Source of the DNA: Neckera pumila
Lineage: Eukaryota; Streptophyta; Bryopsida; Hypnales; Neckeraceae
NCBI GenBank assembly: GCA_963969595.1
Contig: OZ018414.1
Location: forward strand, 23,233,660 to 23,297,659
Reading direction: 5' to 3'
Length of the DNA stretch: 64,000 nucleotides
Part shown: positions 44,803 through 51,875 of the stretch, piece by piece
Layout: the number at the start of each line of letters is the position of its first letter
How positions within the stretch are numbered: the first letter of the stretch is position 1
The notes under the pieces: model-generated
Seen by the model: only the letters and a program-made list of their open reading frames with translations
Database searches by the model: none
What the model was told of the DNA's origin: nothing
Translations under genes and position numbers: made by a program

Positions 44803-45227
44803 AGAGTTATTTGTAAAGTCCCCCCCAATTTGGAGGGGACTTTTTCACAAGCTTCCTCCAACGGAGTAAAAACGCAAAGTCAGTTGGAGTTTTAAAACTC
44901 TAGCCAACAGATGGGGAGTTCTGCGATACTCGGGGATATACCCGGCGATGTCATCTCCCTCCCCCGAGGGTTGGCAAAGCGCCTGACGCGTCTTGCTCGC
45001 AACTTCGCTTGCATCAGACCTTTCTCTCGCAAATGTGTTGCTCCAGGGCCTAGACGCACATCAATTTAGGGTCCTCATGATTGCTGCAGTGAATGTAGTG
45101 GGTTTCAAAACGTGATTTTGATCATTCTTAGGTTTGGGTAAAATTGGTTTCTTGTTATTGGTGTTCAGTGTGATTATCCACTTTCGATGAATTCTGGTGG
45201 TCGTTAGGGTGATCTATTAGGGCGGAG

Positions 45228-46430
45228 ATGGATAGCAGCACATCAGAGTCGTCCTCCTCATCAAGGTGTGATGAAGAGCAGGCTATGCTTGTCATTCAAT
45301 TAGCAATGCAGAGCACGACGGAGCTCCTTCATACAAACAAACTGGAGGAAGGTGGGCAGGAGTCAGTAAACCCCAACAAAGGTGTTCGTGATGTGCTAGG
45401 ATCCTTGATGTCTACTGCAGCTCTGTTTAAGGTTCTAACAAACTTCTCCATTTCTGAATTTGCGGAATTGTGCCAATTGGTTTGTCCAACAATTGTAGAC
45501 CATGCATGATCTATAGGTACTGTTTGCATCGTATCAAGGCATCCGTCTAAGCTGAGTCTGGAACAACGATTGCTTAGCTTCTTGTTGTATATGAAGCACG
45601 ATCCTATTACAGCCTTGCCAAGTTTCCTCTAGAATTGGTCAAAGTCCTCAATTATAAGTGATCAAGTTTTTATTGCTAGTTGTGTGAGTTGGGCTTTGAG
45701 GGATGAAATCAAATGGCCTGACGTTATGAAGAGGCAGGCCTTAGCTTCTATGGTGCCTGGATTTCCAGGGTGTATTGGGATTATTGATGGTACCGTGGTC
45801 AAGATTTGTAGGCCATGGGAAAATCTAGATCATAGCAAGTGGTTCAACGGTTGCAAGAAAATGTACTGCATGAACAACGTTGTCATTGTGGATCACCATG
45901 GTTTGTTCATCTATATACACTCTACCTACCCCGGGTCATTTCACGATGTGAGCTGCCTACGGGCATCACAGCTACACGGAACATGGCGTGAGCATTTTGC
46001 TCATAACAACGTCAACCAATATTTTGAGTACGTGCTTGGGGACTCAAGGTATGTTGGTACGGAAATGTTTATTATGAGACAGATTCAAGGCCATGAGATG
46101 GATGAGGGGATCTCACAAGAAGTAATAAACGCTTGGAACAAGATGCGTGCAAGCTATTGCATTCAGGTAGAGTGGGGTATTAGAGGTTTGAAGCAAAAGT
46201 GGCAAAGGTTGATGAAACGATTTGACAACCAAAGACCACGATTCTGTCATTTTTTTGAGGTTGCTGTAAAGTTAACTAACTTCCTTCATTGTTGTTGCAT
46301 GAACTTCGATATTGTTGTTCCAGATGAGCAAGAAGAAAACGAGGAGCACTTTGGTGGGGTGCAGATTTCTAACCATTGTAGCATTAATTGTTGTCACTGC
46401 TTCGGGTTTAGGGTTTGCTTTTTTTTATGA
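45228..46430 (+). pseudogene. PIF/Harbinger DDE transposase with two premature stops
   Basis: A single frame of 400 codons is interrupted only by TGA at 45507-45509 and TAG at 45630-45632, with no shift of frame. It matches the HARBI1/PIF-type DDE_Tnp_4 family. First catalytic Asp: GCIGIIDGTVVKI. Then YPGSFHDVSCLRAS. Second Asp: VLGDSRYVG. Catalytic Glu: VEWGIRGLKQKW. Upstream, LSLEQRLLSFLLYMKHD and NWSKSS are family-typical. The two stops fall where relatives commonly have Arg and Trp, so each is one transition away from a sense codon. From the ATG at 45684, 248 codons with all three catalytic residues are open. The protein would bind the element ends and cut with the help of the Myb-like partner. 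As it stands this copy probably depends on a transposase supplied from elsewhere. Confidence 0.92.
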
Positions 46431-46583
46431 TTTCAATCTAAGCTGCTAATGAGGGCAGCTGCGGGTCATTACACTTTCACATGCTGATTTAGCTAGGTTT
46501 AGTTCTTAGCTTCAACAGCTACAACTCAAGTTTTCGAAGCTACAGACTTCAAAGTCTAGCTTTTTTTTATCAGAATTCATTAC

Positions 46584-47097
46584 CTTTGATGACGATGTTG
46601 GAGAAATCCAAGAGATGTACCTCGAGAGGATCAAGCATTCCCTTTTGTGTCACAATGATCTATTTAGGGTGTTCTTCAACCGGAAGGGAACGTACCAACT
46701 TTTAAGCTATTTCTTTTGTTGTTTTCCACTTGGCCAGTTGTCCCAGACATTTTTGTCCAGCTCACACGCTAGTATGAATGACCTTCAAGAATAGTTGTCC
46801 AGTCCTTGGGTTGAAAATAAAAATGGCACCATTGATAGGCTTGGTGGTCAAATTTCCTTTGAATGTCTTGTGTATAGTCACACGATATACATTAGTATCA
46901 TTGACGAACCAAATGATCTGGTTGTTGAAAAGCTCTCCATAATTTTGGGATGACAATTAAGGCTCAGTAGGCTCAAATGAATACAGTTGTAGCCCTTTTC
47001 TTACACGCTCCCTCAACACATATAGTGTCGGATTAGCCTTCATGATCTTGTTGATAGCCTATGCATACTTTGGCTTGAAACCAGGGAACCAATTGCC
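46584..47097 (-). pseudogene. PRP8 fragment C (late region), pseudogene
   Basis: PRP8 is the largest U5 snRNP protein and the core of the spliceosome. The minus strand reads [16 protein letters not shown], then [66 protein letters not shown]-stop and MLDPLEVHLLDFSNIVIKG, all in one frame. Identity to PRP8 is very high by eye. At least five in-frame stops break it: TAG after KPKYA, TAA after FEPTEP, TGA after IHTSV, TAA in the EIA-KLVRS stretch and TAG after EEHPK. Similarity stops at AAAG followed by GTAATG, a plausible splice donor. This suggests the fragment came from genomic DNA rather than mRNA. It ends about 150 bp from the transposase stop, on the opposite strand. Confidence 0.93.
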
Positions 47098-47114
47098 GAA
47101 CACACTCCTACCGA

Positions 47115-50398: not shown

Positions 50399-51241
50399 TC
50401 ATTCTAGGGGTGCTTTGAAGTGTAGACCAAGAATGGCCCTAACCTGGGACCTGAATTTGACATCACTAATGGTGCCCAAATACTTTGCATGCTCCAAGTT
50501 CGCAATTTTAGCAGCTTTCTTTTTCTCCATCTTGATGTCCATCTTCAAAGAGAGAAGAGCCTCCTTCCCTTCCGTTTTGACTTCCATACTACATGCAATG
50601 GATTTCATATTCTTAGATTGAGTTGCTAGGAGCTCAGCTTTTGATGGTAGCTTTTGATTTGACGAGGGGCTTAGTGAACAAATACCTGCTCCATGGGTGG
50701 GTGTTTGCGGCCCTGGACTCGCATCCCGTACTTGACTGGGCGCCATTCCAGGTGATGAAGGCTTGGAAAATGTTGTTGGCGAGTTCCCACCACCTGACGA
50801 TGTTTGCTCTAGCATGTTTTGGTGAAGCCTCAAAATGTTGCATGTTGCATGGGAATCTATGTTTCTCAAGCGGGTGAGAACGTCGTCGGCTTGCAGGACA
50901 GCCCTATTTGATCCTTCTTCATTTGACGTGCCTGTCTTAAGCTCCTTGAGGGTCTCCCGAAGCCTGTCCTTCAAAGTCTCCTCTACAAACTTGTTGCCAG
51001 GATGCTCACAAAGGAATTGGTCGTAAACCAATTTCCACACCTTCCCTAGCACCAACTGTGTGACACTCGTCTTGCCCATGCTGTAGGCCGCAAAGTGAGT
51101 TGTGTAGGCCGCAACTAGAGAGGAGAGGACAACAAAATCAACAATAGGGCGGTGGATCTTCTCCTGACGTGGCAATTTTGCCGGTTGTTGAGAAAGGCAC
51201 TGGGAGTCCAACACAGTGCAATCATCTGGTTCGTTGGCCAT
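50399..51241 (-). CDS. Harbinger second protein, Myb/SANT-like (putative)
   Basis: This is an intact frame of 280 residues from the Met in MANEPDDC; an in-frame upstream Met at 51400 would give 333 residues. I prefer the inner ATG because a ttgcag acceptor-like site lies just upstream of it, so the earlier part may be leader or intron. The N-terminal half has a helical block with spaced aromatics, KTSVTQLVLGKVWKLVYDQF, then CEHPGNKF and LKDRLRETLKELK. This is the layout of the trihelix Myb/SANT-like domain in PIF/Harbinger accessory proteins. The middle is Ser/Pro-rich (SPGMAPSQVRDASPGPQTP) and the C-terminus is Lys-rich (KMDIKMEKKKAAKIANLEHA). In studied elements the accessory protein carries the transposase into the nucleus and helps it bind. 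Position and orientation opposite to the transposase fit this. The Myb assignment is weak at sequence level. Confidence 0.6.
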   Translation of the reverse strand: MANEPDDCTVLDSQCLSQQPAKLPRQEKIHRPIVDFVVLSSLVAAYTTHFAAYSMGKTSVTQLVLGKVWKLVYDQFLCEHPGNKFVEETLKDRLRETLKELKTGTSNEEGSNRAVLQADDVLTRLRNIDSHATCNILRLHQNMLEQTSSGGGNSPTTFSKPSSPGMAPSQVRDASPGPQTPTHGAGICSLSPSSNQKLPSKAELLATQSKNMKSIACSMEVKTEGKEALLSLKMDIKMEKKKAAKIANLEHAKYLGTISDVKFRSQVRAILGLHFKAPLE

Positions 51242-51560
51242 GGGAAATCTGCAATGTAAAAATTGAAATGTGGCTGTTTCACTCACTCTCCACACCTTAC
51301 GGGACCAAATCAGAAACCCTAAGTGACTTTGCGACTTCTTCACACAGCAAGAATTGACGAAAATCATCACGTGGCATCGCTCACAAAGAGGGCATTTCAC
51401 TCAGGTCACTAATTGCAGAAATACCCAATAAGATGCATTGTAAACAGAACTGAACGAAAATCAAAGCGGAAGGAATTGAAGCATATGATGCACCTTTGCA
51501 AACCTGGTGAGGCAACTGTTGCCGTGCTCGCATCCCCAACATCGTGCATGCAGTGGAAAC

Positions 51561-51687
51561 CCTTCACCTAAGCTACGCACTCGCGAGTGAAAGACCACCT
51601 GCTGCGCCCTCCCGACACGCCTAGAAATCCTTCGCCTAAGTCACGTACGCCCACAAGTGAAAGACCACCTGCTCTGCCCTCCCGACG
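51561..51687. repeat. Direct repeat near right end of Harbinger element
   Basis: Two units, starting ccttcacctaagctacgcac (51561) and ccttcgcctaagtcacgtac (51629), each run through gtgaaagaccacctgct and gccctcccgac. The period is 68-70 bp. Subterminal repeats of this kind often serve as transposase or accessory-protein binding sites, but that is inference here. Confidence 0.75.
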
Positions 51688-51875
51688 CTTGCGACCACAA
51701 CCCCACAGGCAAAGTCCGGACGGAACTTTTTTTTGGTCGATTTTGGCGCGACAAAAGTTTGATATGGTCTTTCGTATTGGGTACGTCAGGTGTGGGCGAC
51801 TTTTTGCCCAAAATCTGCTTTTTTACAAAACTGTGGGGTTTAAACCCCAATTTTGAGTACTTTACGAATAACTCT

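Follow-up and report, generated by a model that had tools for sequence, protein, structure and literature searches.

A PIF/Harbinger-like transposon family in a moss carries pieces of the host gene PRP8, some of them probably gained in later returns to the native gene

The interval from 44803 to 51875 in the 64,000-nucleotide stretch of Neckera pumila DNA analysed here (the window) is one decayed copy of a family of PIF/Harbinger-like DNA transposons. Comparison of the copies indicates a transposase-bearing ancestor in which about 2.26 kb of the essential splicing gene PRP8 (native 8427 to 6168) lay between the two genes, antisense to the transposase. We consider it probable that the family captured this PRP8 sequence a single time, that the copies then lost parts of it, and that some of them re-captured PRP8 by seeded template-switching repair. 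The features of the window copy are listed below, with native positions referring to the PRP8 locus L041 and the TIC40 locus L043.

44803..44819, + strand: left terminal inverted repeat (TIR), preceded by the AAT duplication (44800-44802); start point of other copies
45213..46427, + strand: degenerate DDE_Tnp_4 transposase gene, with readable frames at 45213-45509 and 45633-46427
46574..47104, - strand: PRP8 piece E, native L041 8427-7900; 90.2% by BLASTN, 49/528 differences; part of the putative ancestral capture
47098..47131: 17-bp tandem duplication where pieces E and D meet, from repeat and junction analysis
47111..47381, - strand: PRP8 piece D, native 6227-5958; 93.4%; goes beyond the putative ancestral boundary at 6168
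47382..47389: 8-bp filler between PRP8 piece D and TIC40, from reading of the junction
47390..48807, - strand: TIC40 genomic fragment spanning native L043 5509-4077, with five exons and four introns; 79/1418 differences
48801..48831, - strand: PRP8 piece C, native 5217-5187; 31 bp, 90.3%, E 1e-5
48826..49132, - strand: PRP8 piece B, native 3870-3561; 93.2%, 18/307 differences
49132..49176, - strand: PRP8 piece A, native 6221-6177; repeats the end of D; putative other-edge remnant of the ancestral capture
49170..50027: piece matching C5:19594862-19595956 at 78-79%
50402..51241, - strand: ORF2, second gene of the family, 280 aa, with bryophyte relatives
51859..51875, - strand: right terminal inverted repeat, followed by the AAT duplication (51876-51878)

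A reading made from the sequence alone had proposed matching 17-bp ends and a 3-bp flanking duplication. The ends match at 16 of 17 positions, with AAT on either side. This pair is not significant by itself, since one such pair occurs in the window and likewise in 4 of 20 shuffles, and we therefore turned to copies elsewhere in the genome, which settle the reality of the ends. Among 40 scored left-end matches in the 339.5-Mb moss assembly, 38 start at the base corresponding to 44803, one starts 2 bases later and one at query base 487. We fetched eight other copies out of these matches, lengthening the BLAST match by 2 bases (L020) or 5 bases (L025) to reach the copy end. Short TIRs resembling those of the window copy were seen in the other copies read, and a 3-bp duplication of AAT or ATT, identical on both sides, flanks every copy in which both ends were read (8/8). 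The ends thus define a repeated unit, as the sequence-only reading supposed. TTA/TAA is the duplication usual for PIF/Harbinger elements but has exceptions, its share being 52.4% for rice and 81.2% for maize according to excerpts of PMC8903248. Since AAT or ATT takes its place in all eight copies, we name the family 'Harbinger-like'.

The transposase frame at 45633-46427 (+) matches DDE_Tnp_4, the DDE transposase type of Harbinger/IS5, over the curated Pfam cut-off (E 5e-24), and the acidic triad positions were picked out by eye in the alignment. The predicted transposase was therefore borne out, though its frame is interrupted between 45509 and 45633 in the window copy. ORF2 gave no confident match in Pfam, NCBIfam or Foldseek. 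Its predicted fold would comprise an N-terminal three-helix domain and a long C-terminal helix, and a Myb-like nature is weakly suggested. None of ten other window ORFs scored over the Pfam cut-off, Rfam gave nothing at gathering score within 40000-56000, and no relatives were confirmed in viral contig and genome contig collections.

Between the two genes, PRP8 is unambiguous on the minus strand and falls into five pieces that we placed against the native gene. Native PRP8 is located on C8 and native TIC40 on C1, both with matched exons free of stops. The long PRP8 stretches lie between the two frames as previously read. They are antisense to the transposase, as had been claimed, yet in sense with ORF2. 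The earlier proposal that the element acquired pieces of PRP8 holds in that the donor is a native gene elsewhere, but the cargo is broader than was supposed, as it also includes intron-containing TIC40 and one or more further sequences. Both the TIC40 stretch, 1.42 kb of genomic sequence, and the C5-matching piece had been overlooked, and the latter (49170-50027) was not seen among the other copies fetched. The PRP8 and TIC40 pieces share one orientation; pieces E, D, C and B are collinear with the PRP8 gene and piece A is out of order. Elsewhere in the window, any match to PRP8 or TIC40 has an E value of at least 0.4. A spliced PRP8 retrocopy as the source is a moot question because the captured coding part of native PRP8 is intronless (a single exon over at least L041 3572-8857), and the TIC40 cargo retains its introns.

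PRP8 belongs to the family and not to the window copy alone. Among the eight other copies fetched, seven contain pieces of it, again antisense to the transposase and between transposase and ORF2. The edge of piece E at 46574 is common to the window copy and five others: native edge 8427 is present in the window copy, L017 and L021/22, and a 10-bp stub remains at this edge in L019, L020 and L024. The opposite edge, at native 6168-6177, is common to the window copy, L019, L020 and L023. Within the core, 12 of 525 columns differ from native PRP8 identically in all three copies compared. These shared edges point to an ancestral element with PRP8 between its two genes. Some copies also carry PRP8 out of order (native 10723-10250 in L021/22) or past the ancestral boundary, together with unrelated genomic pieces such as TIC40. 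Besides PRP8, additional stretches are present in L017, L018 and L021/22, of which a 1.94-kb stretch in L018 matches C3:2675522-2677427 at 93%.

We compared the cargo with the native genes at the DNA level, in place of a residue-level comparison in which cargo, transposase and ORF2 differed equally (chi-square p 0.82) and the kinds of reference were mixed. PRP8 pieces assigned to the ancestral capture differ from native by 7.6-9.5%, and coding pieces assigned to re-capture by 2.1-5.9%. Pooled, these are 246/2799 versus 41/950 differences (Fisher p 3e-6, with n inflated by related copies), excluding two rows for the D overlap, three rows for L021/22, TIC40 and the C5 piece. Adding all L021/22 rows gives 264/3004 versus 88/1431 (p 0.0024), and the window copy alone gives 53/573 versus 30/516 (p 0.039). 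The 3'-end pieces of L021/22, which lie beyond the last matched exon, show 7.3% and 12.6% differences and give no age separation by themselves. In piece D, the part overlapping the ancestral block shows no significantly greater age than the extension (9/116 versus 23/643, p 0.073).

The second age signal comes from L018. Its body shows C>T changes at 18/113 CG and 20/137 CHG sites relative to the majority of copies, and its PRP8 pieces at 1/35 CG and 1/42 CHG sites relative to native (CG and CHG combined, Fisher p 0.002). Judged from these substitutions, cargo and body appear to have decayed as methylated DNA, and the newest pieces did not.

We propose the following course of events as the probable origin of this pattern. 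The ancestral element would have taken up its 2.26 kb of PRP8 once, and the copies would have spread, each losing different internal parts. Later re-captures, perhaps independent of one another, would then have brought more PRP8 into at least two copies. In these, a break within resident PRP8 may have been repaired through strand invasion of the native gene, the resident sequence seeding the repair by homology; synthesis would have run past the shared region, switched template at short microhomologies and joined the other end. The presence of TIC40 in the cargo shows that non-homologous templates were used too. The junctions, which were read by eye with no chance comparison, show overlaps of GAAC(G/A)CA, GATT(T/C)CA and AAA, plus the 8-bp filler; the join of B to A has about one base of microhomology. 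The element would have been silenced by CG/CHG methylation and then decayed, and the L018 re-capture would have followed most of that decay. L018 and the window copy share the breakpoint at native 5958/5957 and also 3 of 258 differences, which counts against separate re-captures; the tree of the element bodies is star-like and does not pair the two. A broader reading, on which we are evenly divided with a slight lean against, is that capture begets capture: a resident gene piece might give break repair a foothold for copying from the native gene, and even silenced copies could thereby resample the same essential gene, reach past the original capture and add further loci through template switching.

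That shared breakpoint would also suit an ancestor that took up most of PRP8 in a single large capture, with the copies keeping different remnants, some reordered, and never returning to the native gene. Although the common orientation of every PRP8 piece and the collinearity of E, D, C and B fit as well, we think this unlikely in view of the two age classes, the L018 PRP8 pieces that lack the deamination of their own body, and the out-of-order positions of piece A and of native 10723-10250 in L021/22. Slightly less likely again is gene conversion between native PRP8 and the resident cargo, which would renew some of the pieces and make the age signal new but not the content. The low divergence of the L018 pieces (11/434) and the breakpoints shared with the window copy are what it would produce, but conversion alone would not yield stretches beyond the ancestral block (for example native 5957-5724 and 3870-3561); those would need an earlier and larger capture.

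Helitron cargo often comprises several gene fragments with the same orientation, and a Helitron or other gene-capturing transposon nested inside the Harbinger element could account for such cargo. This is very improbable: a scan of 46300-50600 found no Helitron-like 3' end (CTRR with hairpin), the repeat search gave no inverted repeats around the cargo block, and the PRP8 edges are common to family members that differ in content. The element itself has TIRs and a target-site duplication, which Helitrons lack. We reject insertion into an older local PRP8 pseudogene, a possibility raised with the sequence-only reading, as the flanks are free of PRP8, the pieces end inside the element, the duplications are intact in 8/8 copies and PRP8 also occurs within family copies on other contigs.

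The route by which TIR transposons acquire host genes remains a matter of debate. The moss family offers a natural series with what would be one first capture, differing remnants, both donors in one assembly and mapped junctions. Two internal clocks, donor divergence and CG/CHG deamination, date the cargo apart from its carrier, and homology-seeded re-capture becomes testable.

Several known systems resemble this family, as far as the published excerpts describe them. Pack-TYPE elements, including Pack-PIF of rice and maize, are TIR elements with host coding DNA, as is the moss element; they are however non-autonomous by definition, whereas the moss element has a transposase gene, broken in the window copy (PMC8903248). 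The Pack-TYPE pipeline classes any transposase-matching element as autonomous (PMC8903248) and sets it aside, so the moss family would go uncounted; pipelines of this kind overlook such carriers. Turmoil-1 of C. elegans, also a Harbinger element that encodes its own transposase, contains fragments from two host genes, one of which includes an intron; these lie in its long terminal repeats and not between two genes (PMC2572040). The gap-filling and FoSTeST models for metazoan Pack-TIR elements likewise have break repair within a resident element proceed by template switching with microhomology; the excerpts contain no return to a single donor gene seeded by homology (PMC8277862). Neither gene capture by bryophyte Harbinger elements nor homology-seeded re-capture appeared in the titles, abstract openings and excerpts of the open-licence literature. 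The closest system is Pifvine-3 of grapevine, described in 2008, in which PIF elements with a transposase and a further ORF often carry a long extra region that is highly identical to the host genome, with exons and introns; some captures occur in multiple copies, from which its authors infer that capture does not block transposition (PMC2528002). Its duplications are mostly TAA/TTA in contrast to AAT/ATT here, and the moss family differs further in having one donor gene across most copies examined, with donor loci and junctions mapped, and in its inferred later returns to that donor. Captured exons in PIF elements that bear a transposase are thus already known (PMC2528002), and the new part is the putative re-capture from the same donor.

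We searched the assembly (339.5 Mb, 18 contigs) with the left 601 bases of the element. The window corresponds to C7:23233660-23297659 of this assembly. The element carries two genes at its opposite ends:

44803-51875: element; 17-bp ends matching at 16 of 17 positions, with AAT flanking each end
Plus strand: transposase gene (DDE_Tnp_4), its frame broken between 45509 and 45633
Minus strand, opposite end of the element from the transposase: ORF2, the second gene of the family

By shuffling alone the ends are not significant: the window yields a single TIR+TSD pair, and 4 of 20 shuffled sequences yielded one too. 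The genome search returned 40 scored matches among 253 candidates, showing that the unit is repeated elsewhere. Eight of the 40 (the window's own counted) span all 601 bases or all but two, and 26 are limited to the first 60 to 80, as expected for short non-autonomous derivatives of the family. We compared eight other copies, seven with near-complete left ends plus L024, whose left end is partial. The sequence-only reading had proposed an element bounded by matching 17-bp ends and a 3-bp duplication, and this is borne out: for every one of the eight copies whose two ends were read (window, L017, L018, L019, L020, L021/22, L023 and L025), the three bases before the element match the three after it. 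They are AAT or ATT, whereas the usual PIF/Harbinger duplication is TTA/TAA. The ends are real on the evidence of the genome copies, not of shuffling.

ORF2 has relatives in Ceratodon and the liverwort Calypogeia, among others. A transposase relative (P0019) and an ORF2 relative (P0171) are both listed with a 246,581-base longest contig, and this identical value points to the two genes moving as a pair. Near the right end, a unit of roughly 63 bp is imperfectly repeated twice over (51556-51686) and has matches in other copies of the element. Elsewhere the window holds a GC-rich array of 31-bp units (7617-7909), about 33 AAC units repeated without a mismatch (60598-60695) and a tRNA-Trp (cca) gene on the minus strand (27508-27579).

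To identify donors, the captured block 46576-49190 was aligned with the genome, giving 13 matches. The window itself accounts for one, the native PRP8 gene (contig C8) for three, the native TIC40 gene (contig C1) for one, a 70% relative of PRP8, likewise on C1, for one, and six other element copies for the remaining seven. The matched exons of both native genes are free of stops (four in PRP8, of which the first spans 5.3 kb or more). Ordered from the transposase, the five PRP8 pieces of the window copy align to native positions 8427-7900, 6227-5958, 5217-5187, 3870-3561 and 6221-6177. PRP8 is not the sole cargo. Between the second and third pieces sits 1.43 kb of TIC40 (native 5509-4077, 93.4%), with five exons, four introns and several splice sites still recognisable; DNA, not mRNA, was therefore copied. 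Moss-like proteins are the nearest matches of the TIC40 pieces (122/138 residues to one of them, 110/144 to Physcomitrium); taken with the ORF2 relatives, this makes a moss the likely host. In addition, 49170-50027 matches contig C5 at 78-79%, a locus that may be either the donor or a sister copy. Separate from the native gene, about 280 residues resembling PRP8 (62% identity, no stops; positions 6060-6896 of C1:42368000-42377900, L044) represent an old partial relative.

As the earlier reading had asked, we looked for PRP8 in the other copies. Seven of the eight carry it, though the intervals vary between copies; the short copy L025 has no PRP8.

L017: native PRP8 8427-7872, interrupted by a 2.26-kb insertion (5-bp overlap)
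L018: native PRP8 6224-5967 and 5957-5724
L019, L020, L023: native PRP8 6694-6168 in each
L021/22: native PRP8 8427-8336, 10723-10250 and 6814-6608
L024: two short PRP8 pieces, 37 and 46 bp

Several edges recur. Edge 8427 is common to the window, L017 and L021/22, and in L019, L020 and L024 it persists as a 10-bp remnant that departs from native at one base, the same in each, and is followed by an 80- to 90-bp spacer. Edge 6168-6177 is common to the window, L019, L020 and L023, and edge 6694 to L019, L020, L023 and L024. Of the 525 columns in the core interval, 12 show one and the same departure from native in all three copies compared, a count that also takes in whatever changed in the native gene after the capture. 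The simplest reading of these alignments would be a single ancestral PRP8 block running from 8427 to 6168.

The cargo appears to be of two ages. Ancestral PRP8 pieces differ from native by 7.6-9.5% (pooled 246/2799), the window's extension pieces by 5.7% and 5.9%, its TIC40 fragment by 5.6%, and the L018 extension by 3.0% and 2.1%. The pooled ancestral and extension pieces differ (Fisher p 3e-6, omitting two overlap rows of the 6227-5958 piece and three L021/22 rows), but because the copies share ancestry the independent evidence is smaller than this value implies. Adding the L021/22 rows gives 264/3004 against 88/1431 (p 0.0024); the window copy alone gives p 0.039, or 0.0035 with TIC40. Within the 6227-5958 piece, the parts inside and beyond edge 6168 do not differ significantly in age (p 0.073), and the 3'-end PRP8 pieces of L021/22 are not clearly younger. 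The tree of the element bodies has a star-like shape, its terminal branches measuring about 5.4-7.1%, as after a burst of copying.

Over ten stretches in six copies, C-to-T changes from native to element on both strands number 60/305 at CG, 78/462 at CHG and 70/1449 at CHH, against 7/220, 5/306 and 45/1532 in the reverse direction, which served as the control. Protein-based inference had given a matching pattern before the donor comparison. Judged from these substitutions, the CG and CHG excess points to methylation in those two contexts. The transposase and ORF2 regions of L018 carry C-to-T changes at 18/113 CG and 20/137 CHG relative to the majority of copies, its PRP8 pieces at only 1/35 and 1/42 relative to native (p 0.002 for CG and CHG together, the two references differing in kind). 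In L018 the cargo thus looks younger than its carrier, and no other sign speaks as strongly for a resident element having taken up PRP8 again from the native gene. From end to end, a 1.94-kb segment of L018 (2112-4048) matches C3:2675522-2677427 at 93%, with a weak match to C9 as well, and it probably represents one more capture from the host.

Some observations sit less easily with such renewed copying. L018 and the window have the break 5958/5957 and 3 of 258 differences in common, yet are unpaired in the tree; L023 stands apart from L019, L020 and L024 despite their common edge 6694, and pieces may therefore have been exchanged among copies. A single larger PRP8 capture, shuffled later, is possible, and so is gene conversion.

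Renewed copying from the native gene could be pictured from the window junctions, whose overlaps were read by eye against the known donors, without a chance test. The 7900/6227 join has a GAAC(G/A)CA overlap followed by a 17-bp tandem duplication, the TIC40/5217 join GATT(T/C)CA, the 5187/3870 join AAA, and the 3561/6221 join about one base; an 8-bp filler precedes TIC40. Repair synthesis would have entered from the transposase side heading toward ORF2, passed native 6227, overshot the old edge 6168 and wandered through TIC40 and PRP8, after which the new strand end would have been joined to the surviving stub 6221-6177. Stops in the surveyed codons of the window copy (five in PRP8, two in TIC40), together with decay, argue against a protein function of its captured pieces.

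The words Harbinger, bryophyte and moss are absent from the main text of a 2026 review of plant gene capture (PMC13317346; word search). Elements of this kind are already known. Turmoil-1, a Harbinger element, carries two captured fragments (PMC2572040), and Pack-PIF elements have been described from rice and maize in work that classes transposase-bearing elements separately (PMC8903248). Grapevine Pifvine-3 resembles the present family: beside its own transposase and a further ORF it carries sequence highly identical to exons and introns of the host, and some of this sequence recurs in several copies (PMC2528002). What differs here is the donor-mapped serial sampling of one gene.
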